NCBI GenBank assembly: GCA_021737275.1
Contig: JAIPEE010000013.1
Coordinates: 1-64,000, forward strand
Reading direction: 5' to 3'
DNA: 64,000 nt
DNA from: Desulfobacterales bacterium
Lineage (GTDB): Bacteria; Desulfobacterota; Desulfobacteria; Desulfobacterales; JAIPEE01
Shown here in pieces: positions 7,116 to 41,483 of the stretch. The notes beneath the pieces were generated by a model. The model did not search any database. It was not told the DNA's origin and worked only from the letters and a program-made list of their open reading frames with translations. Positions within the stretch are counted from its first letter, which is position 1; each line of letters begins with the position of its first letter. Both the position numbers and the translations under genes were made by a program.

Positions 7116-7153
7116 TATAAACGTAATCTAAGTCTTCCAATAGATAAGAAAAG

Positions 7154-7187
7154 GCAGGGTGTGTCATCATGATCACCCTGCTTTTTT
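7154..7187 (+). terminator. Rho-independent terminator after sorting-tail gene 3
   Basis: Stem GCAGGGTG (7154-7161) with CACCCTGC (7174-7181), followed by six T (7182-7187). Confidence 0.85.
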
Positions 7188-7213
7188 AAAAAAATGCTAA
7201 TGGGGAACAAACA

Positions 7214-8200: not shown

Positions 8201-8214
8201 GGTCAGGAGAATTT

Positions 8215-16183: not shown

Positions 16184-16843
16184 TTATGTCAGCTCAAACA
16201 GTAAGGAAATTTCAACTTTCAGTATATCTTTAAAGAGATCCGCCGGTGGCGCAGGGAAAGGGGATGCAGTTAATACGGCATTTATTGCGGCCTGATCAAG
16301 GATCTCACTGCCGGCACTTTTTGAAACGGTAACAGACGATGCATGGCCTTCCTTTGTTATAAAGAACTGAACTGTAACATATCCTTCCCTGTTACTCTTT
16401 TTGGCTTCGATGGGATATTTTTTAACACGTTCAATATGGATTCTTACCATATCAAAGTATGTGTTTCTTGTATCAAAGGAAACGGCACTATCTGATATGG
16501 CAGAAATATCAACAGCGTCGATGGCCGGTAAGGGGCTGATATTTACGATAGTCGGTTTAATGTTTTCCCGGGATATTTGTAAATCGCTTCTGTCAAGTTG
16601 TGGAACGTCAGATATGGCTATGGACGATTGGGTTGCAATTTGTTCAGGCATATTTTTGGGAGGGATATGAGGTTGTGGCGCAGATCTGCCGGTAATAGCC
16701 GCCACCTCATGAAGGGTAAGTTCTATAAAAGAGATTACTTTTGGGCGATACTTTATACCAATAAAAATACCGACGGCCAGATGAAGTGTAAGCGATATTA
16801 TAATTAATATATATAAACGCCTTGCAGGACTATCTGTTGTCAT
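16184..16843 (-). CDS. TonB-family energy transducer
   Basis: 219 aa. One N-terminal transmembrane helix (about 9-27), a 100-residue periplasmic spacer that is only weakly proline-rich, and a C-terminal TonB domain (YPIEAKKSNREGYVTVQF, then AAINAVLTASPFPAPP). It passes proton-motive energy from ExbB/ExbD to an outer-membrane receptor, most likely the divergent one at 19902-21947. It is six bases from exbD. Confidence 0.88.
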   Translation of the reverse strand: MTTDSPARRLYILIIISLTLHLAVGIFIGIKYRPKVISFIELTLHEVAAITGRSAPQPHIPPKNMPEQIATQSSIAISDVPQLDRSDLQISRENIKPTIVNISPLPAIDAVDISAISDSAVSFDTRNTYFDMVRIHIERVKKYPIEAKKSNREGYVTVQFFITKEGHASSVTVSKSAGSEILDQAAINAVLTASPFPAPPADLFKDILKVEISLLFELT

Positions 16844-16849
16844 TTTCTG

Positions 16850-17251
16850 CTATTTCTCGGTTGCCAGACATAGTTTTGCTGCACCGGCCGCTTTTGCTGT
16901 ATCCATAACCTTGACGGCTTTGTTTAAAATAATGGCCCGATCTGCCTTGATAATCACAAGCTGATCCGCAGATCCACTGAACATGGATTTCAGTGTTTCC
17001 AAAAGTTCGTTTTCAGGGATCTGTTTGTTTGCAATATACGCATTTCCATGGATGTCTACATAGATAGTAATTTCTTTTTTTGTCTGTGGTGCGGCAGCAT
17101 TAGCCTGGGGCAATTTAATATTAATACCTTCATCCACCATAAAATTTGTGGTCAGCATAAAGTAAATTAACAATAGAAAAACAATATCTATTAAGGATGT
17201 TAACGGCACCTGGATTGAATACCTGGGCCTTTTATTCCGTAAAAAACGCAT
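16850..17251 (-). CDS. exbD: ExbD/TolR-family biopolymer transport protein
   Basis: 133 aa. Short cytoplasmic N-terminus, one transmembrane helix with the essential family aspartate (about D22 in TSLIDIVFLLL), and a periplasmic ExbD domain. It forms the proton channel with ExbB encoded 25 bp upstream in the same operon and powers TonB. Confidence 0.9.
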   Translation of the reverse strand: MRFLRNKRPRYSIQVPLTSLIDIVFLLLIYFMLTTNFMVDEGINIKLPQANAAAPQTKKEITIYVDIHGNAYIANKQIPENELLETLKSMFSGSADQLVIIKADRAIILNKAVKVMDTAKAAGAAKLCLATEK

Positions 17252-17276
17252 ATGGTTTTATTTCCATCTAAAATAG

Positions 17277-17879
17277 TTACAAGGACATGGCCTTGATAAA
17301 AGTCGTTACACCATTTTGAAGTCTTGCTTCGTATTTATCAATGCGAGAGAGCAGATAACTGTGCGCAACCATAGTCGGCAGTGCTACGGCAAGCCCCATG
17401 GCTGTCGTCAGCATGGCTTCCCATATGCCGCCGGCAAGTACAGCTGCATTTACTTTGCCGCCCATCTGCTGGATAACCATAAACGCCTTGATCATTCCAA
17501 TAACCGTTCCCAGCAGCCCAAGAAGAGGCGCAATGTTGCCGATGGTTGCAAGAGCCTGTGTAAATGAGGAAAGATGCCGGACCTCTTCCTCGGTTGCATT
17601 GGCGATGACAATTTCAAGTGTATTGCGGTCATTTTTATTTACTTCCATGGCCTTTTCAAGAATGCGTCCCATGGGAGAATTGCTTTCCCTGACAAGATCA
17701 AAGGCTTCCTTAAATTTTTTTGCCTTAAACAGTTTTGCCGTTTTTTCTGCAAGACCGGCGCCGCGGACTCTTAATCTGGCAAAATGGATCAAACGTTCTG
17801 AGAATATGGCCAGAGCAAGAACCGAGCAGAAAATTATCGGGTATGTCAGTATGCCGCCTTTTGATAGTAGATTAATCAT
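17277..17879 (-). CDS. exbB: ExbB/TolQ/MotA-family proton channel protein
   Basis: 200 aa with three transmembrane helices: one at the N-terminus and two in the conserved MotA/TolQ/ExbB domain (GNIAPLLGLLGTVIGMI, then AMGLAVALPTMVAH). Inner-membrane channel subunit of the TonB energising complex. Only nine bases from the end of the repeat-protein gene upstream, so co-transcribed. Confidence 0.9.
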   Translation of the reverse strand: MINLLSKGGILTYPIIFCSVLALAIFSERLIHFARLRVRGAGLAEKTAKLFKAKKFKEAFDLVRESNSPMGRILEKAMEVNKNDRNTLEIVIANATEEEVRHLSSFTQALATIGNIAPLLGLLGTVIGMIKAFMVIQQMGGKVNAAVLAGGIWEAMLTTAMGLAVALPTMVAHSYLLSRIDKYEARLQNGVTTFIKAMSL

Positions 17880-17888
17880 AATAAACCT

Positions 17889-19469
17889 TTATATAAAATT
17901 AGTTTCTGTTAAATCCGGCTCTCCATCGTAGTTAAGATCCCTGTCCCGTCGTACAAGTGACTCATTCAGGTCGTAGGATTCCCAGATATCGGCTTTGCCG
18001 TCATTGTTTGTATCTTCCTTCAATGCACTTAACTTGCCATTATTATATTCGTACCACGTGTCGATCATGCCGTCGCCATTATTATCCTGTTCAGCTCGAA
18101 TTGCACATTCCTGTTCATCATAATGCCATATAAGTATTATCCGGCCTGAAGCGTTCAACGATTCAGATTTGAAAATTTTACCGCTGTCAGAATAATAGTA
18201 TTTCAGATCAATATGATGATCATGGTTTTCATCGACCGATTTTATTTTCAGTTTGTCCTGTCTGAAGTAATAGTTTGTCTCGAAATGGCCGTCATGGTCT
18301 AAATCCTGTGAAAGAATTCTGTCCCATTCGGGTATATGGTATAGTTCAAGGGTTTCAAAAAACTGATCATAATTACTGTCGCTGACCATTTTTACTCTTT
18401 CCCCATCCTTATAGTATACCTTTACATCAATGAAACTGTCATAATTTTTATCTTTTTCAAAACGATCAATGTTGCCGGACTTGTAATATTGCCAGGTATC
18501 GATCCGACCGTCAAAATTGCTATCTGTTTCATACCGTATGACCTGTTCCGACTTGTCATAAATAATGGTGACATCCGCTTTACCGTCTCCATTTTTATCA
18601 GATGTCTGAAGCCGGCACTTACCGTTTTTCAATACCGTTGTTGTTTCCAGAAAGCTATCGCCATCTGAATCTGAAACAATTTTAACGGGCATGCTGTTTT
18701 CGAAATACAATATTCGATCCGGTTTTCCCGTATGCCGACTGTCTTCATGGAGTTCTTTTATGCTTCCGTTCGTATTAAACAGGCAGAGGTTATCAAACCG
18801 GCCATCAAAATCAGTGTCTTTTTGCCGTTCCAGAGAAATCCCGTTTTTAAAGGCGATGATTTCATCGATCCTGCCATCGTTATTCCGATCCCATTCCTGT
18901 CGGCGGATCTCTCCTGAACCAAGATTTGAATAATAGAGCCAGATATCAATAAGGCCATCATCATTTTCGTCTTTAGTGGTATAAGACGGGGTCCCATTTT
19001 TATAATAGGTTATTTTGTTAAACACATCATTTGTTCCGGTGGCTTGTTTCAGAAGAACCGGCATACCTGATTTATCAAAGGTTCGGATTTGAAAAACCCG
19101 GCCCATGGAATTTTTTTTATCCTGCTGAAAAACAGTGCCATCTTTAATATGGTCTATCTGGTCAATGTGCCCATCTGAGTTCGTATCTATTTCAACCCGA
19201 ACCACACTTTCATTTTCATAATATTGAAAATGCTCCATAATACCGTCATTATTCCGATCCCCGGCAACAAGAACCAATTTGTCGTGATTGTCATAATATG
19301 CAATTTGATCGATTTTTCCATCGTTGTTCAGATCTTTTTTCAGGGCTCTGTTTTCTTCGGCATATGCAAAAGGTGAAAAAATATTAAAAAAACAAAGCAA
19401 AATAAAAGCAACGACTACAAGCCCGGTTTGCTTCAAAAATTGAAAATTTTTCTGCTTCTTCAACAACAT
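17889..19469 (-). CDS. Secreted protein with about 17 D-x-N-x-D-G repeats
   Basis: 526 aa. Signal peptide about 1-37 (ends F-A-Y-A-E). The rest is a regular array of about 24-residue units, each with an EF-hand-like loop such as DRNNDGRID, DTNSDGHID or DKNGDGKAD followed by a Tyr-rich beta hairpin (YY-x-x-G). I count 17 clear loops plus two or three decayed ones. Such loops bind Ca2+ in dockerin-like and related repeat proteins. It is first in an operon with exbB-exbD-tonB, an unusual partner. Periplasmic or surface location is inferred; function unknown. ATG start after AAGAGG. Confidence 0.75.
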   Translation of the reverse strand: MLLKKQKNFQFLKQTGLVVVAFILLCFFNIFSPFAYAEENRALKKDLNNDGKIDQIAYYDNHDKLVLVAGDRNNDGIMEHFQYYENESVVRVEIDTNSDGHIDQIDHIKDGTVFQQDKKNSMGRVFQIRTFDKSGMPVLLKQATGTNDVFNKITYYKNGTPSYTTKDENDDGLIDIWLYYSNLGSGEIRRQEWDRNNDGRIDEIIAFKNGISLERQKDTDFDGRFDNLCLFNTNGSIKELHEDSRHTGKPDRILYFENSMPVKIVSDSDGDSFLETTTVLKNGKCRLQTSDKNGDGKADVTIIYDKSEQVIRYETDSNFDGRIDTWQYYKSGNIDRFEKDKNYDSFIDVKVYYKDGERVKMVSDSNYDQFFETLELYHIPEWDRILSQDLDHDGHFETNYYFRQDKLKIKSVDENHDHHIDLKYYYSDSGKIFKSESLNASGRIILIWHYDEQECAIRAEQDNNGDGMIDTWYEYNNGKLSALKEDTNNDGKADIWESYDLNESLVRRDRDLNYDGEPDLTETNFI

Positions 19470-19901
19470 GTTTCAGCCTCTTGATATGTTAATTTGATAA
19501 TATTTCTTATTATATCTCTTTATTGTCAATGTTAAAAAATTAAATCATTTATAATATTACTTAAAAAAACAAAAAATAACTTAAAGCTACAGCATAAATT
19601 TAATTATATCATTTGTCTTGCAATCTGAAACATCAGATATTGACATCTGTGTTCGCAAATCAAAGTAAAAAATCAGATTAACGATGATTAATGAGTTAAT
19701 AATTGTAAATATAAGTTATTTTTAGAAGTATTTAACACGTTTTGAAAAATATAATTGACATAAAAAAACCATAAAAGCTAATTAATTAATTACTTTGAAA
19801 TACGACATCATTTTATAAGTAAATAAAAAGTTTTGTAAGTTGATTAAAATGGTCTGAGAGGAGCGGCAGAAATTATTTGATAACAAACAGGAGTACAGGT
19901 G
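19470..19901. promoter_or_regulatory. Divergent promoter region of the TonB system
   Basis: About 430 bp, very AT-rich, no gene. On the plus strand a perfect TTGACA at 19755-19760 with a TAATTA about 18 bp on could be the receptor promoter. No clear Fur box recognised. Ribosome-binding site ACAGGAG precedes the receptor ATG at 19902. Confidence 0.4.
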
Positions 19902-21947
19902 ATGAAGAAATTAGTTGTTTTAGGTCTATTGTTAAGTGGTTTTTTGTTTTGTCCAAATGTATTTGCTGATGATGTGCAGACAGGGAGTACCGTTTATAAT
20001 CTTGGAGAAGTACTGGTCCTTGAAAAAAGTGAACAGGCACAAAATGTAACAACGGTTACCAATGTTTCGGAAGAGACAATTAAGCAGCAGGGCGCAAGAA
20101 ATGTTGCAGAGGCTTTAAACCAGATTCCGGGTGTAAATGTCGTAGTGGGCAACAAAGGGCAGGCCAGTGTAAATTTACGCGGTTTTACCCAGGATGACGT
20201 CAAGGTTCTGATTGACGGCGTTCCGGCCCATGAGTCCTATTTCGGCTCGCTGGATCTTATGCAGATCCCCGTTGATGCCGTTGCCAAAATTGAAGTAACC
20301 AAAGGCGTTTCATCAGCACTTTATGGTGCCAATACGATGGGCGGTGTCATTAATATTATCACCAAAAAAGGTGGTGATGAGCCGTTTACCCAGCTGACCA
20401 CATCTGCAGGTAACAACAATACTCATAATGTTATTTTGAATCATGGCGGTTCTGCCGGTGCTGTCAATTATTGGATGACATACGGTTACAGGGAATCGGA
20501 TGGTTTTGAACTGTCCGATGATTTTGATCCGAATAATGTGTGGACCGGCCTTGGCTCGGAACATAATGAAGACGGCGGTACACGGGATCTGAGTGATTAT
20601 ACCAAAAGATCTTTTAACGGCAAGATAGGTATTGAACCGGATGCCGGTACGGAGATCTATCTTACTTTTGATTATCATAATAATGAGAAAGGTTGTCCGA
20701 CAGAATCTTCCCGTTACTGGGAATTTACCAAATGGGACCAGTGGCACCTGAACCTGGCCGGACAGCATCAGGTCAATGATCTTTTAACGGTCAAGGGGCG
20801 CGCATATTATGTAGATCACAATGATACGCTGGAAGATGTAAGCTGGGATGCAAATCATACCACAGGAAGAAAATGGTTTGAAGAAAGCTCCTATGATGAT
20901 TTTACAGCCGGTGGTGAAGCTCAGGGATATCTTGACTTTGGTCCGGCCAGCCTTGTAAAGATTGGCGCAAGTTATATGAAAGATAATCATAAACAGCAGG
21001 ATTTGCTTGATGATTCTACCTTTAGCGTTATCATGGGTTGGGAACAGGCAGGGTTTCTTCCGGAAGAAGAATATGAAGCCGATACCTGGTCGTTTGCCAT
21101 TGAAGATGAGATCAAACCTCTGGACAAACTGGCCATCGTGCTCGGCTGCAGCTATGATATGTATGAGCCGGTTAAGGCCTATGATCAGGACGTGCCGGAC
21201 AAGTCGGATTCTTTTAACCCGCAGGCCGGCATCAATTATGATATGACGGAAGATCTTGCGTTTCATGCGTCTGTTGGAAAAAAGACCCGTTTCCCACAGC
21301 TCAAGGAACTATACAGTGATGTCTCCGGTGGAAATCCAAACCTGGATCCCCAGAAAGCCATTGTCTATGAAGTGGGCGCGAGCCACCGGCTCAATGATAA
21401 CATCAACACCCGCATTGCCTATTTTTATAATGATATCGAAGACAGGATTGATACTGTAACGCTGCCCAGTGGCGATCCTATATATGTCAATATCGGCGAA
21501 AGTACAACTCAGGGTGTAGAATTGGCAATGGATATGGCGCTTTGGGAAAATCTTATGCTTGGTGCAAACTATACCTATCAGGATGCATACGACAAGGCAG
21601 ATGACACCAGTGATGAAGTACGCGCGGAAAAGACACCCCGTCATAAGGTAAACGTTGATGCAGGCTACCGGTTTGACGTTGGTTTTTCAGCATTTGTTCA
21701 GGCATCCTATACACGGGACCAGGTTACCACTTATCGGGATCCTGTCACTTTTATGGATGTGGAAAGGGATCTGGATAACTACCTGCTTCTTAATGCGAGA
21801 GTCAGTCAGAATTTTGTAAATGTCTGGAAAAAATTCAGTGCCGAGTTATTTGCCGAAGTTAAAAATATTACGGACGAGAATTATGAAGAAGGTGAAGGCC
21901 CTACGCCCGGCAGGAATTATCTGTTTGGTATTACCATGGCATACTAA
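19902..21947 (+). CDS. TonB-dependent outer-membrane receptor
   Basis: 681 aa from the ATG at 19902 (a GTG three bases earlier is also in frame). Signal peptide ends at V-F-A-D. A plug domain (about 45-155) contains GARNVAEALNQIPGVNV, VNLRGF and the LYGANTMGGVINI signature, then a barrel of about 520 residues ending in an aromatic residue (GITMAY). A possible TonB box is LGEVLVLEK near residue 28. It imports a scarce ligand across the outer membrane; size and layout fit cobalamin/siderophore/metal receptors, but the ligand is unknown. The following SUOX-fold and CcsA/ResB genes suggest an atypical, perhaps metal or haem-linked, cargo. Confidence 0.88.
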   Translation: MKKLVVLGLLLSGFLFCPNVFADDVQTGSTVYNLGEVLVLEKSEQAQNVTTVTNVSEETIKQQGARNVAEALNQIPGVNVVVGNKGQASVNLRGFTQDDVKVLIDGVPAHESYFGSLDLMQIPVDAVAKIEVTKGVSSALYGANTMGGVINIITKKGGDEPFTQLTTSAGNNNTHNVILNHGGSAGAVNYWMTYGYRESDGFELSDDFDPNNVWTGLGSEHNEDGGTRDLSDYTKRSFNGKIGIEPDAGTEIYLTFDYHNNEKGCPTESSRYWEFTKWDQWHLNLAGQHQVNDLLTVKGRAYYVDHNDTLEDVSWDANHTTGRKWFEESSYDDFTAGGEAQGYLDFGPASLVKIGASYMKDNHKQQDLLDDSTFSVIMGWEQAGFLPEEEYEADTWSFAIEDEIKPLDKLAIVLGCSYDMYEPVKAYDQDVPDKSDSFNPQAGINYDMTEDLAFHASVGKKTRFPQLKELYSDVSGGNPNLDPQKAIVYEVGASHRLNDNINTRIAYFYNDIEDRIDTVTLPSGDPIYVNIGESTTQGVELAMDMALWENLMLGANYTYQDAYDKADDTSDEVRAEKTPRHKVNVDAGYRFDVGFSAFVQASYTRDQVTTYRDPVTFMDVERDLDNYLLLNARVSQNFVNVWKKFSAELFAEVKNITDENYEEGEGPTPGRNYLFGITMAY

Positions 21948-21982
21948 AAACAGTTAAATTACAGGACACAAAAAAACACACG

Positions 21983-22013
21983 ACTCCGGCCTTTGTTTTA
22001 TAAAAGGCCGGAG
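21983..22013 (+). terminator. Hairpin after the receptor gene
   Basis: 11-bp stem ACTCCGGCCTT (21983-21993) with AAGGCCGGAGT (22004-22014 approx.), T-poor tail. It may trim or attenuate read-through into the next gene rather than end the operon. Confidence 0.6.
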
Positions 22014-22037
22014 TTATTCATATCATACAGGTTTCTT

Positions 22038-23093
22038 ATGAAAAAGATTTTCTATTTATTACTGCTCCTGATCTGCCTGATGTCGACAGTAATTGCACAG
22101 GCAGAGACGTTTGTGAAAACGCTTAAAATTCATGGAAGCGTTGCCCATGAGCTGACACTGACCCGGAGCAACCTTGAAAACTATCAGCAGGCCACCGTAC
22201 ATTTAAATGAAGTCCTTATAGATGGCCGATTTCGTGGCGTATTTGAATTACGGGGTGTACCACTGAAAGCGCTGCTTGAATCGGCAGTGATTCAGAAAAC
22301 TGATACGGATTTTAATAAGCCGGTGGACCTTGTTGTAATGCTCCGCAGCAGCAGTGGTCAGTATGTTACATTGTCCTGGGGTGAAATTTTTTACCGGAAC
22401 CCGGGCGATATTATTATTGCCACTTCAGGTGTTCCGATAATTCCGCACAAGGGTATTCATCATTTTTCAGATCCTGATGAATATCGCACCATGATTAAGG
22501 TACTTCACAGGGAGATTGACTACCCGAAGCTGGTTATTGGAAGTGATTTTTATGCGGACAGAGCATTGGAAGATATTGCAGATATTGAAATAATTGATCT
22601 TAAAGCCAACATACCCGGGGAAAAATCATCTAAAGTCCGTTCAGACTGGTTCAGAGTTAATGGTAAAGTATCTAAAGAACTACTGGTCCATGATCTGTCA
22701 ATTTTTTCAAGACAAGAAATTACGACTCATATTGTGGGAGAGGGTAGAGGGTATCATGGCTCACATCACTTTGAGGGGGCGCCATTTAAGGAAGTTCTGT
22801 TAAAAGCTGAACCCTCTATCAATATGAATACCGTCTTTCTTGTTTCGGCACCGGATGCTTATCGTTCTGCAGTATCCTATGGTGAGCTTTTTCTGAAACA
22901 ACCGGATGATCGTACTATTATTGCAGATCTAAAGAATGGAACAGCCATAGAAAATGGCGGCCGGTTTATCCTGGTAATTCCTGATGATGTAATGGCAGAC
23001 AGGGAAGTTCAGGCAATATGTCGGATCGAGGTTTTTGATATGGATATCTGGCTTAAATACAGAGAAAAAATTGAATCATGGTCAAAAAAATAA
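22038..23093 (+). CDS. Periplasmic protein with two sulfite-oxidase-fold (SUOX-like) domains
   Basis: 351 aa from the ATG at 22038; this start gives a clean signal peptide (KKIFYLLLLLICLMS...AQA) and avoids an in-frame TTG that lies inside the hairpin upstream. Two tandem domains (about 25-185 and 205-345) follow the molybdopterin-dependent oxidoreductase fold pattern: a beta start, then GVPLKALL / GAPFKEVL, and an end RFILVIPDD...CRIEVFD. The molybdenum-ligating cysteine expected for sulfite oxidase or MsrP is missing, and the only mature-region Cys is near the C-terminus. The second domain has GEGRGYHGSHH, a His-rich motif. Likely a binding rather than redox protein. Confidence 0.65.
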   Translation: MKKIFYLLLLLICLMSTVIAQAETFVKTLKIHGSVAHELTLTRSNLENYQQATVHLNEVLIDGRFRGVFELRGVPLKALLESAVIQKTDTDFNKPVDLVVMLRSSSGQYVTLSWGEIFYRNPGDIIIATSGVPIIPHKGIHHFSDPDEYRTMIKVLHREIDYPKLVIGSDFYADRALEDIADIEIIDLKANIPGEKSSKVRSDWFRVNGKVSKELLVHDLSIFSRQEITTHIVGEGRGYHGSHHFEGAPFKEVLLKAEPSINMNTVFLVSAPDAYRSAVSYGELFLKQPDDRTIIADLKNGTAIENGGRFILVIPDDVMADREVQAICRIEVFDMDIWLKYREKIESWSKK

Positions 23094-24154
23094 TTGCCGG
23101 ATGTATGGTGCTTCTTGCCGGTATTATAATTTATTACTACCGGCATAACAAAAGTTACTATGATGTCATGATAATGACCGGTGCGACGCCCCTGGCAATT
23201 ATTGAAACGATACCATCAGACATTTTCCTGACGGTTAACGGGTATGTAAAAAAGAATTATCAGTTTAGCAGTAGTGCACTCAGGGCATTTTCAACAACAC
23301 GTATCCGGACAAAAGAATTTTCTGATGAAGGTTGTTTTATCGGCAGTTATGCATATCAGGGTATACCGGTTTTTCATATACTTGAAGGCATTTCTCCTCA
23401 AAAACCGGCCGGCGCCTCTTTTGATCAACCGCTGGACCTGATGGTTATTTTTACTTCAGCTTCAGGTGAGCAGCGGATTTTCAGTTATAATGAAATTATT
23501 ATGACTGATGACCGTTATCCGATTACACTGGCTTTTCATCGCAAACCACTTTTGCCGACATCGGATAAAGCAAGCGAATCCTATCCATATAATCTGTATC
23601 CGGAGCCGCTGGACGGGTTGCGTCTCATCTGCCCCAGAGAGTCAACGACAGGCCGTTATCTTGATAACGTTATTCGTATTACCCTTATAACACCGGAAAT
23701 GCCGGACCATATTCTGCCTGAAAGAAAAAAAGGGACCGATTGTATAAGCCCTCAAATTATATGTATGGATAATAAAACAGTATGGCCGGCATCATTTGAT
23801 ACGGTTGATCGACAAATTGAAAATAAATGGGTCAGAATCGGCCATGGTCATGGTTATGAAGATACTGTATCTGCTGAGGGATATCAGCTTCGTTCATTTT
23901 TAAAAACCAATTTCCCGCATTGTACAGACCAGGATCTGTTCATGTTTATTGCCTGTGACGGTTACAGATGCCTGTTTTCAGGAAGAGAGATTTTTGGAAC
24001 ATCGGATGGCTCCCGGATGATGATTATTGATGAGCTGAATGGTGAAAAGGCAAAAGAAGGATATAAGCTTGCATCACCGGAAGATTACTATATCGATCGG
24101 GCCATGTGGGGTGTTGCTTATATTGTACGGTTACAGAAAACAAAAAATAATTAG
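23078..24154 (+). CDS. Paralogous SUOX-fold membrane-anchored protein
   Basis: 358 aa, start overlapping the previous gene by 16 bases. An N-terminal hydrophobic helix (about 4-21, IIAGCMVLLAGIIIYYY) is an anchor or lipoprotein-like signal. Two domains mirror the upstream protein: YQGIPVFHILEG, then GHGHGYEDTVSAEG and GYQLRSFLK, ending VIRLQ. The G-x-G-x-G-Y motif is shared with the 22038 protein at the same place. It has several cysteines (CPRES, DCIS, HCTD, ACDGYRC), none clearly the SUOX ligand. Function unknown; probably works with its paralogue and the two membrane proteins that follow. Confidence 0.6.
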   Translation: MVKKIIAGCMVLLAGIIIYYYRHNKSYYDVMIMTGATPLAIIETIPSDIFLTVNGYVKKNYQFSSSALRAFSTTRIRTKEFSDEGCFIGSYAYQGIPVFHILEGISPQKPAGASFDQPLDLMVIFTSASGEQRIFSYNEIIMTDDRYPITLAFHRKPLLPTSDKASESYPYNLYPEPLDGLRLICPRESTTGRYLDNVIRITLITPEMPDHILPERKKGTDCISPQIICMDNKTVWPASFDTVDRQIENKWVRIGHGHGYEDTVSAEGYQLRSFLKTNFPHCTDQDLFMFIACDGYRCLFSGREIFGTSDGSRMMIIDELNGEKAKEGYKLASPEDYYIDRAMWGVAYIVRLQKTKNN

Positions 24155-24166
24155 GAAAACACATCT

Positions 24167-24916
24167 ATGATAACAACCGGTCGGCATGAAATTTTATATA
24201 TCGGTATACTGTTGTTTGCCGTTTCAATGGTTTTCTATTTTTGCAGGGCCCGAAAAACAGCGTTTTATATTTTGATTTCAGGCCTGTTGGTATACACGCT
24301 GTATCTTCTGGGCAGAGGGTGGGTCGGTGGTGTTTTTTTGATCAATCCCATTGTTGAAGCACCTTTTTTACTACCATGGTGTATCGGAATGATTGCCCTG
24401 GTTAAGGGTATTTTAAACAGAGAGGGTGACTGGGGTATTTTACTGATCGGCACGGTCATGGCATCTGTTTTTGCCATGTTTTATGCAAAAGGTATTATAC
24501 CGCCGACACCAAACAAGTTGACGGTCTGGGTACCGCTTTTTTTCGTTCCGGAAGTTATGGGGCATGCACTGTTTTTTTGCGGGGCTCTCTATGCGGTTGC
24601 ATCCGGATTTGGAAAGAATAAAGATATGGATTTCCATAATCTGATTATCTGGGGATTTGTTTTTTACAGTATTTCCCAGGTTACAGGAGCAGTATGGTGT
24701 TATCTGGGGTGGGGAAACACTTTCCGCTGGTCAACAAGACATATGGCTTCTGCAGCGATATGGACACTCTATGCCGCTTACATCCATCTGAGATTTCTTC
24801 CGGGTTTTACCAGAAGAGGTAAAGCCTGGTTTGCACTGGCCGGGGGACTAATCGTTTTATACATAGGTTTTAGCGGGTACCTGCATGAACTTCGTTTTCC
24901 GCGCATCGGAGGATAA
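24167..24916 (+). CDS. CcsA/CcmC-like membrane protein (haem-handling family)
   Basis: 249 aa, about seven transmembrane helices. The periplasmic loop before the last helices, GAVWCYLGWGNTFRWSTRHM, aligns with the tryptophan-rich WWD haem-binding motif of CcsA/CcmC, although the usual W-D-x-x-E is replaced by W-S-x-x-H. A conserved His is present in AAYIHLRFLPG. Shorter than typical CcsA. Pairs with the next gene, a ResB-like protein, as in system II cytochrome c biogenesis. Confidence 0.7.
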   Translation: MITTGRHEILYIGILLFAVSMVFYFCRARKTAFYILISGLLVYTLYLLGRGWVGGVFLINPIVEAPFLLPWCIGMIALVKGILNREGDWGILLIGTVMASVFAMFYAKGIIPPTPNKLTVWVPLFFVPEVMGHALFFCGALYAVASGFGKNKDMDFHNLIIWGFVFYSISQVTGAVWCYLGWGNTFRWSTRHMASAAIWTLYAAYIHLRFLPGFTRRGKAWFALAGGLIVLYIGFSGYLHELRFPRIGG

Positions 24917-24919
24917 ACA

Positions 24920-25783
24920 ATGATAACATTATGGCGTGCCCTGGGCAGCCTTAAACTGGCATTCTGGTTGCTGATAGGTGCAACAGCATCTTTGTTTACA
25001 GGCTCCTTGTATGCCAATCAGGATTATTCATTTTTCAGTACACTCAATGAAACACCGCTTCATATATGGTTGGCGGCCCACATTAAATCAGATTTTGACA
25101 TTATCTGGTGGCTGCCTGTATTGTTTATCTTTATGACCCTTCTGGGTTTTAATATCTTCGTTTGTGCTTTGAACAGAATGATACGGCTGTTAAAGAAAAG
25201 AAAAAAAATGGCGGGCAACCGTTTTTTTGTAAAATTGATGCCGTCCATTATTCATTTTCTGTTTCTGGTTATTATCACGGGACATTTTATTACCTTTACG
25301 CTCGGTTCATGGCAGCGAACACCGCTAAATATAGGAGAAACAGTTTACATCGGGGAAAAACCTGTTGCGATGACGGTACAATCCATTAAACATCAGTATT
25401 TTCCGGAACATTCCGGTTTGAGAGGCCGGGTAGAGCAGATGCAGGTTGTTTTGACGGATGAAAGAGGTCGTGAATTACCGCTTTCATTTCTTAAACCGGT
25501 ATCTTTTGACGGGACAATGCTGCAGCTGGATATGCGACCGAATAAGCAAAAAGCTGTTGATCAGCCACCCTTGCAAATTGATGGTAAAGATATTAATGAA
25601 TATTGTAATAAAGCTCATATCTACCATGTGCAGCCCCAAAAGGCAGATAAACAGCTAACGTTATTGTCTATAAATGACCCCGGCCTCTATCTGATCCTTT
25701 GGGCATTTACAGCGATTTTAATTTTAATGACCTGGTACTTTGTCTCTGTTGCTGCCGCTCGAAGCAAAGCGAAGCATTTTTAA
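24920..25783 (+). CDS. Short ResB/CcsB-like membrane protein
   Basis: 287 aa. It begins LGSLKLAFWLLIGATASLFTGS as ResB does, has three N-terminal helices (about 10-30, 58-78, 105-125), a periplasmic domain (about 130-250) and a last helix (about 255-275). Normal ResB is 450-550 aa, so this is a reduced form. CGGAGGA Shine-Dalgarno; four bases after the CcsA-like gene. Together they could move haem or electrons for the SUOX-like proteins upstream (inference). Confidence 0.68.
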   Translation: MITLWRALGSLKLAFWLLIGATASLFTGSLYANQDYSFFSTLNETPLHIWLAAHIKSDFDIIWWLPVLFIFMTLLGFNIFVCALNRMIRLLKKRKKMAGNRFFVKLMPSIIHFLFLVIITGHFITFTLGSWQRTPLNIGETVYIGEKPVAMTVQSIKHQYFPEHSGLRGRVEQMQVVLTDERGRELPLSFLKPVSFDGTMLQLDMRPNKQKAVDQPPLQIDGKDINEYCNKAHIYHVQPQKADKQLTLLSINDPGLYLILWAFTAILILMTWYFVSVAAARSKAKHF

Positions 25784-25823: not shown

Positions 25824-26573
25824 ATGATGCAAATATTACTTTGCATAGATGATACGGACAATTTAAATACACCTGGAACAGGGCATCTGGCAGAATCATT
25901 AATAAATCAGATAGAAAAAAAAGGATGGGGTAATTTTTCCGCCATATCGCGGCACCAGCTTTTTGTCCATGAAGATATACCCTATACTTCCCATAATAGT
26001 GCCATGTGCGCTGAAGCAACCATTGATGGAGATTATCTTGGTTCAATAACGGATTTAGGTATCAGATTTCTTGAGACCGAAAGTGCAGAAGGTTCTGACC
26101 CGGGAATATGTGTTACCGTAATTGATGACAGGCTGGATCATAAAAGCTTGATGGATTTCGGTGCTAAAGCAAAAAATACGGTATTGACAAAGGAAGAGGC
26201 TTACGGCCTTGCCAAATCTTCAGGTGTGCATTTGTCTGAGCACGGCGGTACCGGCGATGGAATTATCGGCGCATTGGCCGGCACCGGTTTGAGACTGGCC
26301 GGGAATGACGGCAGATTTCGAGGCTGGCATCATATTGGTCTCGCCGGTGGGACTATTACCGTAAAAGCGTTGTGTGATTATGAATTCATCGATTCCGTAA
26401 GAAGTGAGTCGGGCCGGAAACTGCAAAATGATGATGTGGTCGAATTTGGAGGAGACAGAATAAAACGTGTACTGCAAAATTTCGAACAGACGCTGTTGGT
26501 TACTGAAAAGGTTGATAACTCAAATGGTGTAAAGTGGAAAACGCTTACAAAAGCGCAGGTGAAGAAATATTGA
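25824..26573 (+). CDS. Stand-alone TiaS-like (IDDTD) domain protein
   Basis: 250 aa from the ATG at 25824, which has a TTAGGAGAT Shine-Dalgarno; an in-frame TTG at 25740 would run into the previous gene. It begins QILLCIDDTDNLNTPGTGH, the start of the ATP-binding domain of archaeal TiaS (tRNA-Ile2 agmatinylcytidine synthetase), and contains EHGGTGDGIIGALAGTGLR. The C-terminal OB/zinc-ribbon part of TiaS is absent. Bacteria use TilS, so another role is likely. It is convergent with the ModE-like gene, only 11 bases apart, and separated from the cytochrome genes by 40 bp. Confidence 0.6.
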   Translation: MMQILLCIDDTDNLNTPGTGHLAESLINQIEKKGWGNFSAISRHQLFVHEDIPYTSHNSAMCAEATIDGDYLGSITDLGIRFLETESAEGSDPGICVTVIDDRLDHKSLMDFGAKAKNTVLTKEEAYGLAKSSGVHLSEHGGTGDGIIGALAGTGLRLAGNDGRFRGWHHIGLAGGTITVKALCDYEFIDSVRSESGRKLQNDDVVEFGGDRIKRVLQNFEQTLLVTEKVDNSNGVKWKTLTKAQVKKY

Positions 26574-26584: not shown

Positions 26585-26944
26585 CTAATTCAGATCTTCA
26601 TTAAATAAATCATTATAGACATCGTTTGCTTCGGTTTGAATGATAGACCGGGTCCGTTTGAATTTTTTCATCAGATTTTTTGCAAAAGGCGTCAGTGTTG
26701 AACCATGTTTGGTTCGAGTAACCAGTGGTTTGCCGAGCAGATCTTCGGAAGATTGTACCCGGAGCCATAACGCCCGATAGCCCATTTTAAGTTCTTTTGC
26801 TGCGGCATGCATGGAGCCTACCCGATCAATAGCTTCCAGAACATGGTAACGTCCGAGGCCGAACGCGATCTGTCCATCCTGACTTTCAATCCATATTTTA
26901 GTCTGAATTTTAAAATCGGTTTTTATTTCTGATGCTTTTTTCAA
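26585..26944 (-). CDS. ModE-type DNA-binding protein without molybdate domain
   Basis: 119 aa from a TTG at 26944, nine bases after AAAGGA; a TTG at 26953 is the alternative. The single domain is the ModE/LysR-like winged helix: VLEAIDRVGSMHAAAKELKMGYRALWLRVQSSEDLLGKPLVTR. The C-terminal Mop/TOBE molybdate-binding repeats of ModE are missing. It sits at the distal end of the Mop maturation operon and is the best candidate regulator of the molybdenum genes here; its signal would have to come from another protein or be absent. Confidence 0.82.
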   Translation of the reverse strand: MKKASEIKTDFKIQTKIWIESQDGQIAFGLGRYHVLEAIDRVGSMHAAAKELKMGYRALWLRVQSSEDLLGKPLVTRTKHGSTLTPFAKNLMKKFKRTRSIIQTEANDVYNDLFNEDLN

Positions 26945-27058
26945 TATGGACAATCCTTTATAAAAATAAAAACATCAATCAGGAATCTGAATCTTTTTGA
27001 ATAATAACTGAAATCAGTATGGGATCAATTTACAATTCTAAAGCGGGATAGTCAATTA

Positions 27059-27710: not shown

Positions 27711-28847
27711 TTATACCTCTTTTATCTGATTGGAGATGATGGTTTCTATCGGCTGATCGATAATTTTTTCAATACGGCTTTTTAACATGGTTGTGAGCTG
27801 CCATCGCTTTTTAATATTTTTTTCTGCCTCAATATTATCGCCATATTGATCCAGACTGAATTGAAACCGCTTCTCCATATTGATAATCCGGTCGTTTTTA
27901 ACCCACTTGTCTGCGAGAAAAACAATATCTGTCTCAGATACACCGGTTTTCTGAAACGGCTTGCCATCCGTATGGGCAGCAACGATTTCAGCAACCTGTT
28001 CATACCCCATATCTGAAAGCACTTTTCCCCCGGTCTGTGCATGATCTTTTTGACCTTTTGCCATATCATGCAGTAAAGCGGAGGCTTCGATGAGCCTGAT
28101 ATTCAAGGACCCGCCTGTCTCGATGATTTTGTTTGCGATAGTTTTTGCAACCTGTGCAACTACCATGGCATGTCGCTGTATTGCACCAGAAACATGAAAA
28201 ATATCCGTCAGGATTATCCGGCACTCTTCCGGTGTAGGAATATTGTGATCAATATATCTGTTCAGAAGTTCTTCATAATCTTCCGGTTTATTAATGTTAA
28301 ACATAATATTTCTGTCCGGCACTTCAACGCATAGCGCATCCTGATGATATCTTCTGAGCGCGCCTTCCAGTCCGTCAGCTCCGGAGTGGTCAAGAATATT
28401 TTTTTTAAAAATGGTGGGGATTACCGGAGGGTGCCCTTTTTGGCCCATAAAACAGGGATAAATGATTTTGTCGGGATGTTTCTTAAATCCGGAGATCAGG
28501 TGACGGATTGTCCAGGGTCGTATTAACGGCATGTCGACCGGACAGATTAAAAAAGCGTCACACTGTTTCTGCAGACTTGAAATACCGGCTATGACGGATG
28601 AGTACATTCCGTCAGCATATTGAGCATTTTCAACAATATGAATGTTCTCATGTTGCAGAAAGGGATAAAGCTTTTCTTTTCTGTGTCCGACAATAACATG
28701 GATTTCAGATACACCGCCGGTCTGAAACCCTGAAATTACCGTTTCGATAACTGTTTTTCCATTTAACGGCAGTGTGGCTTTTAATCTGCCCATTCGTGAG
28801 GAATAACCGGCTGCCGGGATAATGGCGGCAATATGATGTTTCTTCAT
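27711..28847 (-). CDS. MocA-like NTP transferase fused to HD domain (DVU_1551 family)
   Basis: 378 aa. Residues 1-195 form a MobA/MocA nucleotidyltransferase: AAGYSSRMGRLKATLPL and the metal site CPVDMPL. Residues 225-345 are an HD phosphohydrolase domain (LIEASALLHDMAKGQKDHAQTGG). MocA adds CMP to molybdopterin, giving the molybdopterin cytosine dinucleotide used by xanthine-oxidase-family enzymes such as Mop in this operon. The HD fusion is known from anaerobes; the family name is from memory of Desulfovibrio vulgaris annotation. ATGA overlap with the 39-codon gene upstream. Confidence 0.82.
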   Translation of the reverse strand: MKKHHIAAIIPAAGYSSRMGRLKATLPLNGKTVIETVISGFQTGGVSEIHVIVGHRKEKLYPFLQHENIHIVENAQYADGMYSSVIAGISSLQKQCDAFLICPVDMPLIRPWTIRHLISGFKKHPDKIIYPCFMGQKGHPPVIPTIFKKNILDHSGADGLEGALRRYHQDALCVEVPDRNIMFNINKPEDYEELLNRYIDHNIPTPEECRIILTDIFHVSGAIQRHAMVVAQVAKTIANKIIETGGSLNIRLIEASALLHDMAKGQKDHAQTGGKVLSDMGYEQVAEIVAAHTDGKPFQKTGVSETDIVFLADKWVKNDRIINMEKRFQFSLDQYGDNIEAEKNIKKRWQLTTMLKSRIEKIIDQPIETIISNQIKEV

Positions 28848-35543: not shown

Positions 35544-38261
35544 TTATTTGAGACCGGCCAGTACTTTTTCCGGTAGGGCCGGTAAGCGGGTAATCCTTAC
35601 GCCACAAGCATTGTTGATAGCATTAATGATAGCCGCATGCGGGCTTGTTAACGGTAGTTCACCACAACCGGCAGCGCCAAAAGGACCTTCCGGTCTTTCA
35701 TTTTCAACATAGACAATTTCCATATTATCCGGAATATCCTTAGCGTATGGCAGGCCGGCACCTTTAAGCGTTGAATGCTTTTGAATATCTTCAAAATCTT
35801 CAGTCAGTGCCAGGCCGATACCCTGGGCAAGACCACCGTATATCTGACCGTCTGTTGCCAGCCTGTTACAGATTTTTCCAATATCAGCCACACAGGTCAT
35901 TTTTTCAACCGTGGCTTTTCCGGTCGCAATATCTATTGCTACTTCAGCCAGAAAAATTCCGTACATATATACGGCAAAAGGTTCACCCTGGCCCTTGTCA
36001 TCCGGAACGGTACATGGAGTTGTCCATTTACCGGAATACTTGAGCGGTAGATTTTCGGCGACCATTTCATCATATGTATGGTATGAGCCGTCCGGTTTGC
36101 GCATGCCATCCAGTAATGCCCGACAGGCAGCAACGATTGCCCTTCCGGTAACAACCTGTTGACGGCTTCCGCCGGAGGCACCGCTGTCCGGAGCCGTAGC
36201 CATATCATTTAAAGCCAGTCTGATTTTTTTGGGTGGCACGTTGAGGGGGCGTAAGGCTTCGTGAGCAGTACCAAGTGTGCCGATGTCCGCACCCTGTCCA
36301 TGGTCTTCCCAAGTGTTAAATAATGTAACTACATTGTCGGGCCCGAGTTCGATTGCACATTCGGATGGATCTGGACCATCAGCGCCGCAGCCGTACATGC
36401 CCAGAGAAATACCTACACCGCGTTTTGTTTTATCATCAGAGTTTTCCTTTGCTTTTTTAAGCGCAGCCTCATATTTCGGTTTCAGGATATCCATCATCTC
36501 TTCGTAGCTGTAAACTTCCGGTTTTTGTCCATGAGGCATCGTATCTCCGGGGCGAAGGATATTTTTGTACCGCAGTTCAAATGGATCTAGTCCGATTTTT
36601 TCCGCCAGTTCATCCATGAGTACTTCAGATGCGAACTCACTTTGAGGCGCGCCGTAAGCCCTGAAAGCTGATCCCCATCCATGGTTGGTGCATACCGTAC
36701 GGCCGTTGCCTCTGATATTAGGGATAGAATACCCGGCGCCGATGAACTGGTTGCCTCTTGTGGTCAGGAGGTCTCCGAATTCGGAATAGGGGCCGTGATC
36801 AACGGACCAGTCGGATTCCATTGCCAGCAACTTGCCGTCATTATCGGCGGCCATTTTGAGATTAATGAAGAAAGGAGAACGTTTTCCGGTATATGTCATT
36901 TGCTGATGATAGTCATAGCAAAGATAAGTCGGTCGTCCGGTTGCCATGGATGCAACACCTAAGAGGGCTTCAGTGGTCGGGCTGAATTTGTGGCCGAATG
37001 TGCCACCCGTCGGATTTTGTGCGATAAACAGTTTGTCTTCAGCAATACCCAGGCCTTCAGCAATCATAAAATTATGAACATACAGCGCAATGGATTTCGA
37101 GTTTATAAACAGATTACCGTTATCATCCGTATAGGCAAACCCAACGCACGGTTCCATGGGCATATGCGGCTGGCGGCCGACATAAAAATCATCTTCAACA
37201 ACATGTGCGGCATCCTTGAATATCGGTCCGGTTTCTTCACCTTTTTCGATTTTACAGTTAAAATAAACATTAGGTGTGCCCGGATGTATTTCCATAGCAT
37301 CTTCAGCCATGGCTTCAGGAGCGCTCATGTATGCGGGGAGCTCTTCCAGGTCCACAACTACTTTTTTAGCGGCCGCCTTTGCATTTGATTCCGTATCCGC
37401 ACAAACAATAGCAATGGCATCGCCGTACTGAAAAACTTTTTTGTCACAGAGAATAGGGCGTTCAAGGCCGTCACCGAGATTGGTATCCGGAAATGTTACA
37501 AGTCCGTTAATCCGGTTACTGCCGACAACATCTTTGTAGGTTAAAATTTTATGGACGCCCGGCATTTTTTCTGCGGCGGAAGTATCAATTGACTTTATAT
37601 TTGCATGGGATACCTTTGCCTGGACGAGTGCCAGTACCAACGTATTATCCGGCATTTTGATGCCGAGATCAGCGCCGTAATCAATTGTACCGGTGACTTT
37701 TGCCATTGCGGTGGGGCGCGGTATGGATGATCCCCATATACGTCCGTCAGCGGGCATTTTAAATTCAAGTTCTTCTATATCTTTTTCACCGCGCATAACT
37801 TTAGCAGCATCCATAGTGGCATCAACCAGCGGTTTGTATCCTGTACAGCGGCAGGCATTCCGGTGGGCATTATACCAGTCACGAATTTCTTCACGGTCGG
37901 GGTTGTCGTTCTTATCGAGCAGCGATTTAGATGATACGATAAATCCGGGTGAACAGAAGCCGCACTGGGCACCACCATGAAGCGTCCATGCTTTTTGCAG
38001 AGGATGTGGCGCATCAGGCGTTCCAATGCCTTCAATAGTTGTAATGGATGCATCATTTTTTACTTTGGACATTTTGGTAACACAGGATCTGACCAGCTTG
38101 TCGTTCATGATGACATTGCAGCATCCGCATTGACCTTCGCCACAGCCTACTTTTGTTCCGGTTAACTTAAGCTGTTCACGAACGACCTTAGCCAGGGAAT
38201 CATCTTCCCGTACTACAACCGTTCTGTCGATACCATTAACTTTCAGTGTTTTCTTGATCAT
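35544..38261 (-). CDS. mop: Molybdopterin-dependent aldehyde oxidoreductase (Mop)
   Basis: 905 aa, xanthine-oxidase family. N-terminal [2Fe-2S] cluster Cys 40, 45, 48, 60; second cluster Cys 100, 103, 137, 139; these are the same numbers as in the 907-aa D. gigas enzyme. A long molybdenum-binding part follows, ending GAAGCGELPLTSPHAA with the catalytic Glu. There is no FAD domain, so electrons leave through Fe-S to a carrier. It oxidises aldehydes to acids using molybdopterin cytosine dinucleotide. Strong AGGAGG site before the ATG. Confidence 0.95.
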   Translation of the reverse strand: MIKKTLKVNGIDRTVVVREDDSLAKVVREQLKLTGTKVGCGEGQCGCCNVIMNDKLVRSCVTKMSKVKNDASITTIEGIGTPDAPHPLQKAWTLHGGAQCGFCSPGFIVSSKSLLDKNDNPDREEIRDWYNAHRNACRCTGYKPLVDATMDAAKVMRGEKDIEELEFKMPADGRIWGSSIPRPTAMAKVTGTIDYGADLGIKMPDNTLVLALVQAKVSHANIKSIDTSAAEKMPGVHKILTYKDVVGSNRINGLVTFPDTNLGDGLERPILCDKKVFQYGDAIAIVCADTESNAKAAAKKVVVDLEELPAYMSAPEAMAEDAMEIHPGTPNVYFNCKIEKGEETGPIFKDAAHVVEDDFYVGRQPHMPMEPCVGFAYTDDNGNLFINSKSIALYVHNFMIAEGLGIAEDKLFIAQNPTGGTFGHKFSPTTEALLGVASMATGRPTYLCYDYHQQMTYTGKRSPFFINLKMAADNDGKLLAMESDWSVDHGPYSEFGDLLTTRGNQFIGAGYSIPNIRGNGRTVCTNHGWGSAFRAYGAPQSEFASEVLMDELAEKIGLDPFELRYKNILRPGDTMPHGQKPEVYSYEEMMDILKPKYEAALKKAKENSDDKTKRGVGISLGMYGCGADGPDPSECAIELGPDNVVTLFNTWEDHGQGADIGTLGTAHEALRPLNVPPKKIRLALNDMATAPDSGASGGSRQQVVTGRAIVAACRALLDGMRKPDGSYHTYDEMVAENLPLKYSGKWTTPCTVPDDKGQGEPFAVYMYGIFLAEVAIDIATGKATVEKMTCVADIGKICNRLATDGQIYGGLAQGIGLALTEDFEDIQKHSTLKGAGLPYAKDIPDNMEIVYVENERPEGPFGAAGCGELPLTSPHAAIINAINNACGVRITRLPALPEKVLAGLK

Positions 38262-38314: not shown

Positions 38315-39358
38315 TCAGCACTTTCCGAATCCGCAAAGCGGGTATTTGCATACCTTGCAGCCCGCACAAAAACTGCCGTATCCGAGAGAGACAATATCCG
38401 CTTTGGTAACAGATTCACCAGCCAGCAGCCTTGGTACAACCAGTTCAAATATTGAAGCCCGGTAGTACATGACACATCCGGGCAGGCCGATTATGGGGAC
38501 ATCATTAATATAGGCCAGCATGAACATGGCGCCGGGGAAAGCCGGTGCGCCATATGTGATTACTTTTCCGCCTGCCGCACGTATACTGGTCGGCGTGAGA
38601 TCATCCGGATCAACAGACATCCCGCCGGTCAGTATTACCATCTCGGCACCTTCATTGATAAAACGATGGATGTTATCTACAGTCATTTTTACATCGTCAG
38701 GAACGAAGACCTGGCGGGTAACATGGCTTCCAAGTGCTTTGAATTTTTTCTTAACAATCGGACCGAACTTGTCTTTAATACGGCCACTGTATACTTCACT
38801 GCCGGTTGTAATAAGGCCGACACGCCAGGCGTTATAGGGTTTGATTTCAATCAGAGGATAGTTTGACTGGCAGATATTTTCTACGGCGACAATTTCACGA
38901 TCATCAATAACCAGAGGGATAATTCGCGTTCCGGCAACCGCCTGGCCGGCTTCAACCTGTTGGTTATTGTGCATGGTGCCGAAAACAATTCCATCCATTG
39001 AATTGAGCTGGAACAAGGCCTCTTTGTTCAGTTTGAGTAATCCCGGATATTCGGAAACGAGGTTAACCCGGCCTTCCTTTACTTCAGAAAAGTGAAATCC
39101 CTTACCTGCAGCAGCATTGGCTATTCTTTCTGCCGCTTCATTTTCATGAACCATTCCAGGACTCATTCCAAAAACATAAATATTCTGTTTTCCAATATCC
39201 AGCAGTTTTGAAATATCTTCTTCCCGGATGATATGCCCTTTTCTGAAAGCCGGACCCTTGACACTCTCCGGAATGATCTGTGTAACATCATGTGATAATA
39301 TTGTGCCAACTGCTTCATGTACGGGTATGGATTTCATCACCATACTGGGGTTTTCCAT
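38315..39358 (-). CDS. MoeA-like molybdopterin-binding protein with Cys-rich tail
   Basis: 347 aa from the ATG at 39358 (AAAGGTG upstream; a GTG two codons earlier is less likely). A MoeA/MogA-type domain includes GLITTGSEVYSGR and ILTGGMSVDPDDLTPT. The last 17 residues, CAGCKVCKYPLCGFGKC, carry five cysteines in a CxxCxxC-x4-C-x4-C pattern not normal for MoeA and like a small Fe-S or metal site. First gene of the leftward molybdenum operon. Probably supplies or inserts molybdenum for Mop. Confidence 0.8.
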   Translation of the reverse strand: MENPSMVMKSIPVHEAVGTILSHDVTQIIPESVKGPAFRKGHIIREEDISKLLDIGKQNIYVFGMSPGMVHENEAAERIANAAAGKGFHFSEVKEGRVNLVSEYPGLLKLNKEALFQLNSMDGIVFGTMHNNQQVEAGQAVAGTRIIPLVIDDREIVAVENICQSNYPLIEIKPYNAWRVGLITTGSEVYSGRIKDKFGPIVKKKFKALGSHVTRQVFVPDDVKMTVDNIHRFINEGAEMVILTGGMSVDPDDLTPTSIRAAGGKVITYGAPAFPGAMFMLAYINDVPIIGLPGCVMYYRASIFELVVPRLLAGESVTKADIVSLGYGSFCAGCKVCKYPLCGFGKC

Positions 39359-39739
39359 ATTCACACCTTTTTCAGTAGTTTATGTTTGATGATGACAAGT
39401 TCTAAACTTTCTCCGGAAGATACGATATCCGGATGCTTAAAAATTATTTCCAGGGTAAATCAAGTCTTGTTATATCGAAGTCAATACAACAAGACTTATA
39501 AACATGGTCTTTAAAATTCTGTCAAGAGAAAAAATAAGTGTTTTATTATATAATACATATTTTTTTAAACAGACACTATAAAAGGCTTATAAGATCCGGG
39601 GATTAAGTGAACCGTATTTTGTACTTGACAGTACCAATCAGGTTGGTTTAGGAGTCGTTATATCTTTAAAGGATCAACAAATAAATCTGATCCTGTGTTT
39701 TTTCACCTAAAGTATCAAGAATGCATAAGGGGGAGAAAT
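39359..39739. other. Divergent control region between moeA-like gene and mod operon
   Basis: About 380 bp, AT-rich, no gene. Contains the dyad at 39462-39497. A CGTTATAT near 39656 matches a ModE half-site but lacks its partner. Ribosome-binding site AAGGGGGAG at 39728-39735 serves the TTG at 39740. Confidence 0.5.
39462..39497. promoter_or_regulatory. 36-bp dyad, candidate ModE-type operator
   Basis: 14-bp arms 39462-39475 (AAGTCTTGTTATAT) and 39484-39497, one mismatch, 8-nt centre. The core GTTATAT-N8-ATACAAC resembles the ModE box (CGTTATAT...TAYATAACG). Position between the two divergent molybdenum operons fits joint repression. Confidence 0.55.
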
Positions 39740-40713: not shown

Positions 40714-40714
40714 C

Positions 40715-41476: not shown

Positions 41477-41483
41477 GTATGTT

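Follow-up and report, generated by a model that had tools for sequence, protein, structure and literature searches.

The window considered here is a 64,000-nucleotide stretch of DNA from a Desulfobacterales bacterium (contig JAIPEE010000013.1 of assembly GCA_021737275.1, positions 1 to 64,000), and its subject is a divergent pair of gene runs in which a TonB-dependent receptor and its energising proteins are joined to two SUOX-fold proteins, SUOX1 and SUOX2, and to a small CcsA/ResB-like membrane pair. The features of the two runs are:

16184..16843, minus strand: TonB (PF03544, E 5.6e-16)
16850..17251, minus strand: ExbD (PF02472, E 2.3e-27)
17277..17879, minus strand: ExbB (PF01618, E 3e-32)
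17889..19469, minus strand: secreted Ca-loop repeat protein, DUF6802-like, which heads the exbBD-tonB operon (PF20615, E 1.9e-10)
19470..19898, no strand: divergent promoter region, with no Rfam element above threshold
19899..21947, plus strand: TonB-dependent outer-membrane receptor (PF07715, E 9.5e-28; PF00593, E 1.6e-49)
22038..23093, plus strand: SUOX1, an exported tandem SUOX-fold protein without the molybdenum (Mo)-binding Cys (PF00174, E 1.4e-6; AlphaFold model; conservation)
23078..24154, plus strand: SUOX2, a diverged SUOX1 paralogue with an N-terminal hydrophobic anchor (by identity to SUOX1; no Pfam match)
24167..24916, plus strand: CcsA-like membrane protein (PF01578, E 6.4e-8; hhalign match to the genome's canonical CcsA)
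24920..25783, plus strand: ResB-like membrane protein (no Pfam match; hhalign match to the genome's canonical ResB)
25827..26573, plus strand: TiaS/Mmp11-like cytoplasmic protein, the final gene of the run (TIGR03280, E 3e-10, below cutoff)

A check of the open reading frames and their Pfam matches found all the genes of the preliminary description present and on the strands described. The minus-strand unit runs in the order Ca-loop repeat protein, ExbB, ExbD, TonB with intergenic gaps of 6-25 nt, and the plus-strand run in the order receptor, SUOX1, SUOX2, CcsA-like, ResB-like, TiaS-like, where the two SUOX genes overlap and the later gaps are 3-43 nt. The Pfam matches place a receptor with both plug and barrel beside ExbB, ExbD and TonB, so that, as far as sequence can tell, these genes belong to TonB-dependent transport. 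ExbB homologues also adjoin SUOX1 loci in relatives (loci are labelled L below), and at two of them (L035 and L038) a homologue of the Ca-loop repeat protein stands next to ExbB. The TiaS/methanogenesis-marker-11-like protein recurs near the system in three phyla (L040:14499-15278, L068:2084-2803, L213:2068-2808).

Judged by its recurrence in relatives, the gene set is a real, conserved unit. Of 297 genomes sampled from the phylum, 27 have a homologue of SUOX1, as do seven of the 58 closest relatives and 73 of 393 Bacteroidales genomes; the distribution within the order is patchy. A scan of 84,980 species gave at least 69 loci, a minimum because it caught only loci with one conserved peptide in common. 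The system is conserved in Desulfobacterota and Bacteroidales and is rarer elsewhere. In a core of 57 loci the receptor is present at 40, the ResB-like protein at 29, the CcsA-like protein at 18, an APC-type permease at 18 and an Exb/TonB gene at 12, and the receptor lies in 27 of 42 Bacteroidales SUOX1 neighbourhoods; these counts are not fully independent, since the two locus collections partly overlap in organisms, and many contigs end close to SUOX1, short contigs hiding neighbours. The neighbourhood labels rest on similarity to reference proteins, with Pfam/NCBIfam checks for the key loci. When the receptor was compared with 24 other genomes, its top-scoring match was nearly always the one linked to SUOX1, in many cases by a wide margin over the runner-up (630 against 223 bits in genome G252, for example). 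It had been proposed from the letters that these genes form one conserved uptake/redox system served by a receptor outside the named families. Both parts of that proposal stand. In relatives the receptor, SUOX1 and CcsA/ResB genes occur together rather than separately: SUOX1 has an orthologous receptor as its neighbour and, in many cases, CcsA/ResB. The window's receptor has its orthologues among the SUOX1-linked receptors and falls in no named siderophore or cobalamin receptor family. The haem-like ligand suggested with them is not supported, for the reasons given below.

The SUOX fold and the missing Mo ligand, both predicted in the preliminary description, were borne out by structure prediction and alignment. 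The AlphaFold model of SUOX1 (pLDDT 90.8) has a SUOX fold and structurally matches SorA, chicken SUOX, YedY and the pterin-binding protein PruR. It aligns with SorA (2blf_A) with a Z score of 16.4 and a root-mean-square deviation of 2.6 over 137 residues, and its domains align with PruR (7rkb) with a Z score of 14.8 and 2.0 Å over 120 residues. At the position of the Mo-ligating Cys of YedY, SUOX1 has I61, and a Cys was found there in 0 of 33 relatives in the alignment. Residues of SUOX1 that are conserved include H240, D273, Y275, E283, D321 and R322. SUOX2 is homologous to SUOX1 (~24% identity across some 300 residues), and its orthologues adjoin tungsten AOR-like genes, one in L054 (994-4405) and three in L057 (164-10363), the L057 copies being assigned through clustering with the L054 AOR. 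AORs are tungsten enzymes as a rule. SUOX1 most likely binds or processes an imported compound in the periplasm. PruR is a periplasmic pterin-binding SUOX-fold signalling protein that likewise lacks the Mo cysteine (PMC13259868), and because its Cys-less fold holds a pterin, a pterin-bound metal is, by analogy, a live possibility for the compound that SUOX1 handles.

In relatives SUOX1 is often elaborated. A CXXCH motif is present in 47 of the 57 core proteins, and in 30 of the 57 a C-terminal domain with a full CbiF tetrapyrrole methylase fold (Z 20.4) is fused to SUOX1; the window SUOX1 has neither. The structure-search matches listed for the SUOX-methylase fusion are methylases only, because the methylase domain fills the list; the SUOX part was modelled separately. 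S-adenosylmethionine is not expected in the periplasm, and therefore the CbiF-type domain of the fused proteins may be a binding module. The fusions (L063:10001-11773, L036:1686-3515 and others) are apparently exported, the signal peptide being judged by inspection, and often carry CXXCH; export would be odd for a methylase.

The membrane pair is homologous to the CcsA/ResB pair of cytochrome c synthesis and reduced relative to it, as had been read from the sequence. A canonical pair is encoded elsewhere in the window's genome (L133), and profile-profile alignment with hhalign matched the ResB-like and CcsA-like proteins to it with probabilities of 96.4% and 97.8%, respectively. The alignments show that the invariant residues C82 and H112 of the ResB-like protein and H207 and W188 of the CcsA-like protein are kept. 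The WWD motif of CcsA is not found in the alignment of the CcsA-like protein, where WGNTFRWS replaces WGxxWxWD and the aspartate is lost. Across the core 57 loci the pair and the CXXCH motif do not track each other, CXXCH occurring without CcsA/ResB at 25 loci and CcsA/ResB without CXXCH at 8. Because of this, the pair would appear to be a redox or thiol module rather than a haem ligase.

The surroundings of the system in relatives argue strongly for tungsten (W) or Mo as its substrate class, since relatives from two phyla hold the genes in one operon with tungstate importers. Such operons, with a known W/Mo ATP-binding cassette (ABC) importer, are found at L146, L232, L202 and L223. At L146, in Desulfobacterota, a single strand carries receptor-CcsA-ResB-SUOX1-TupA-TupB-TupC (TupA, NF041772, 358 bits with a cutoff of 400; TupB, 288 bits with a cutoff of 320), and at L232, in Bacteroidales, a single strand carries receptor-SUOX1-CcsA-ResB-WtpA-WtpB-WtpC, several of the genes overlapping (WtpA, TIGR03730, 258 bits with a cutoff of 243). 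L202, L206, L214 and L223 have a layout like that of L232 but without CcsA/ResB. SUOX1 is enclosed by importer genes at L122-L124 (ModE-WtpA-SUOX1-WtpB-WtpC-MoeA), and the receptor is adjoined by a helix-turn-helix (HTH)-PBP regulator and TupA at L070, L073 and L082. Wtp genes are present in 22 of the 42 Bacteroidales SUOX1 neighbourhoods, where a rough binomial estimate expects fewer than one at random; outside Bacteroidales, TupA, WtpA, ModB, ModE or an HTH-PBP regulator is present at 19 of the 57 core loci. Two loci in Bacteroidales (L232:2786-4601 and L202:2605-4424) also have a lipoprotein-like protein and a protein secreted by the type IX secretion system ahead of the receptor, candidates for extracellular metal capture.

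This linkage can be compared with that of other TonB receptors. In 22 genomes, 4 of 17 SUOX1-linked receptors have TupA or WtpA no more than 10 kb away, against 2 of ~128 other receptors, the latter tallied by hand (Fisher p 0.0017). Both exceptions come from two genomes that are related to each other; where the adjoining gene was tested, in one of them, it proved to encode a free-standing counterpart of the fused methylase domain. The idea that the TupA-adjacent receptors of L130 and L131 accompany a diverged SUOX was dropped, since Pfam identifies the gene at L130 as encoding TP_methylase on its own, and the comparison of 4/17 with 2/128 was used as the conservative test in place of 6/19 with 0/126, which counts these two as SUOX. 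L130:8187-11803 and L131:6427-8950, with a receptor and a TupA-like protein and no SUOX domain, and at L130 also a TP_methylase and FmdE, may represent a sister system.

A possible regulatory link is seen at one locus, L113, where a Mo/W riboswitch (RF01055, 59.9 bits) and a strong terminator hairpin (z -3.9) separate TupA from the receptor gene. RF01055 precedes the receptor in L113 only, the Rfam scan found no Mo/W riboswitch in the window, and in the order of genome G224 there was a single, sub-threshold match among 46 genomes, so that the riboswitch is rare support. A FecCD-type importer stands alongside the system in some loci (L033, L091 and L113); the molybdate importer MolABC is also of this type. 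Geobacter-type loci (L091:6961-7680 and similar) encode a cytidine/guanine-deaminase-like protein, apparently exported, next to the SUOX1-methylase fusion, together with FecCD-type ABC, DUF364 and FmdE genes.

In the window itself, where no single neighbour identifies the substrate, the system is followed by genes of Mo metabolism, in a region that extends to about 42.2 kb:

26585..26953, minus strand: regulator resembling the ModE N-terminus, with a LysR-type HTH (PF00126, E 1.9e-11)
27711..28847, minus strand: MobA-like nucleotidyltransferase fused to an HD domain (PF12804, E 4e-34)
35544..38261, minus strand: xanthine-oxidase-family Mo aldehyde oxidoreductase (PF02738, PF20256)
38315..39364, minus strand: molybdopterin-binding MoeA/MogA-like protein (PF00994, E 4e-25)
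40027..42212, plus strand: modB-modA-modC molybdate/tungstate ABC transporter

Just 12 nt separate the end of the ModE-like gene from the plus-strand run, and homologues of this gene occur at L039, L103 and Bacteroidales loci. A radical SAM protein with an HMPTM zinc ribbon, of the pterin methyltransferase type, is also encoded within this region (30306-31691, minus strand). Elsewhere and here together, the genome encodes 13 AORs of the tungsten type, along with WtpABC, an HTH-PBP regulator-TupABC cluster and ModBAC. Across the sample, AOR genes are more numerous in genomes with SUOX1 than in the others (median 6.5 against 2.0, p 9e-4), in line with a W/Mo theme. Further upstream in the window are four consecutive exported proteins (4497-7912) with basic-ended C-terminal tails that resemble PEP-CTERM/VPxxP sorting signals, and a match to a group II intron (Rfam D1-D4-3; 8062-8221, plus strand; 58.8 bits with a gathering score of 32) that adjoins an open reading frame at 8215-8808.

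Taken together, these results of comparative genomics and structure prediction make it probable that the system acquires tungsten or molybdenum by TonB-dependent transport. Because Tup and Wtp have a preference for tungstate, W is favoured over Mo, though the two are not separable here; Mo was among the ligands put forward in the preliminary description. Uptake would take place in two stages, outer-membrane transport energised by TonB being followed by an inner-membrane ABC step. The receptor (19899-21947), driven by its own ExbB-ExbD-TonB, would move a W- or Mo-containing compound across the outer membrane, and this is likelier to be a complex than the bare oxyanion because the oxyanion passes porins. 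The SUOX-fold proteins, which have a pterin-cofactor fold without the Mo ligand, may then bind or process the compound in the periplasm, while the reduced CcsA/ResB proteins, which probably form a haem-redox pair in the membrane, may donate electrons or keep thiols reduced. Freed tungstate or molybdate could enter through TupABC, WtpABC or ModABC, which share an operon with the system in several relatives and have their genes elsewhere in this genome, and could supply W/Mo enzymes such as the 13 AORs. A more specific version, a widespread pathway in which W is scavenged in an organic, possibly pterin-bound, form and a duplicated SUOX-fold protein and the CcsA/ResB-derived redox pair free the metal by reduction before import by TupABC or WtpABC, can be offered only tentatively.

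Several observations weigh against acquisition of W or Mo. About two-thirds of the non-Bacteroidales SUOX1 loci have no W/Mo gene within the available DNA. No Tup or Wtp gene is adjacent in the window, WtpABC and TupABC lying on other contigs, and the nearest W/Mo importer, modBAC, starts 14 kb past the last gene as a separate unit. Several of the Tup/Wtp subunit matches fall below curated cutoffs, the Mo/W riboswitch was found at one locus only, and the excess of AOR genes in genomes with SUOX1 is corrected neither for genome size nor for phylogeny. There are cobalamin genes in the vicinity of L036 and L037, and a FecCD-type ABC importer at L033. Finally, tungstate and molybdate pass porins, so that the need for a TonB receptor implies that a complex is taken up.

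The nearest alternative is that the receptor imports molybdopterin, tungstopterin or a breakdown product, which SUOX1 would bind as PruR binds its pterin, the metal being stripped for the tungstate importer. The resemblance of the SUOX1 domains to PruR, the exported deaminase at Geobacter-type loci and the HMPTM radical-SAM protein in the window are all consistent with such scavenging. Intact molybdenum cofactor (Moco) is unstable outside proteins, however, and scavenging of this kind is rather unlikely. The PruR pocket, moreover, is reported to be truncated and too small for Moco (PMC13259868). The same likeness to a signalling protein (PMC13259868) raises the idea of a sensor, in which SUOX1 would signal how much pterin or W/Mo the periplasm holds and the receptor would act in surface signalling, and ModE-like and HTH-PBP regulators often neighbour the system. 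The neighbours are, however, transport genes, often in the same run, a dedicated energiser is present, and the annotated neighbours showed no DcpA or sensor-kinase partner, although no dedicated search was made; a sensor role is very improbable.

The tetrapyrrole-like features of the relatives suggest instead corrinoid or haem uptake, with a BtuB-like receptor, a periplasmic protein that binds tetrapyrroles and a CcsA/ResB pair that handles haem. Cobalamin in particular was suggested by the BtuB-like Pfam/NCBIfam signals, by CbiB, CobS and CobT at L036/L037 and by the CbiF-like fusion, and the frequent CXXCH would suit haem. Cobalamin was rejected, as no cobalamin riboswitch was found in the window or in ~50 scanned loci, one of which has the Mo/W riboswitch, and the receptor scores 166 bits on the BtuB model TIGR01779, far under the cutoff of 599.7. 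The window SUOX1 also lacks the features that prompted the idea, CcsA/ResB-like proteins remain at loci without CXXCH, and the W/Mo transporters, ModE-type regulators and Mo/W riboswitch around relatives indicate otherwise, so that cobalamin and haem are unlikely substrates and this form of uptake is very improbable. The CXXCH motifs and the CcsA/ResB homology could also point to specialised cytochrome c maturation, the small pair attaching haem to SUOX1 in what would be mainly a periplasmic electron-transfer chain. Haem attachment was rejected since motif and pair do not track each other; with the WWD aspartate lost, a canonical pair elsewhere in the genome and a window SUOX1 that lacks CXXCH, such a role is similarly improbable.

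If the system does acquire W or Mo, these anaerobes would compete for W in a form that has to be taken up actively across the outer membrane, which would imply a new W/Mo ligand in anoxic environments; TonB transport would gain a metal class, and the SUOX fold and the CcsA/ResB pair a new job. The prevailing view is that porins admit W and Mo to Gram-negative cells in the form of small oxyanions. A search of the open-access literature, with subscription papers and preprints outside its range, found no TonB-dependent W or Mo uptake system, and the literature examined on W enzymes and W cofactor maturation mentions no TonB or outer-membrane step.

The layout most resembles that of the BtuB-BtuFCD and siderophore systems, with a plug-and-barrel receptor, ExbB-ExbD-TonB, a periplasmic protein and an ABC importer, but the importers here are those for tungstate and molybdate (Tup, Wtp, Mod), a SUOX-fold protein and reduced CcsA/ResB are added, and in an NCBIfam search the receptor matched no siderophore, haem or cobalamin receptor family model. 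TupABC, WtpABC and ModABC, co-operonic in L146, L232 and L202 and encoded elsewhere in the window's genome, carry out the inner-membrane step only. Like SUOX1, PruR is an exported SUOX fold without the Mo cysteine; PruR, however, is a single domain found with cyclic di-GMP enzymes, whereas SUOX1 is a tandem domain found with a receptor and metal importers. MsrP/YedY and SorA, the SUOX-family Mo enzymes, have the same fold, and the presence of a gene for a haem-type membrane protein alongside is reminiscent of MsrPQ, but in SUOX1 the Mo-ligating Cys is missing, the domain is duplicated and the partner resembles CcsA/ResB instead of MsrQ. The two membrane proteins share homology with System II CcsA/ResB, from which they differ in a much smaller ResB, the altered WWD motif and the presence of a canonical pair elsewhere. 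Membership of the BtuB, SUOX enzyme and CcsA/ResB synthase families thus fails in each case at one defining test. The transport principle is a known one, and it is the substrate class and the periplasmic parts that we rate as new.

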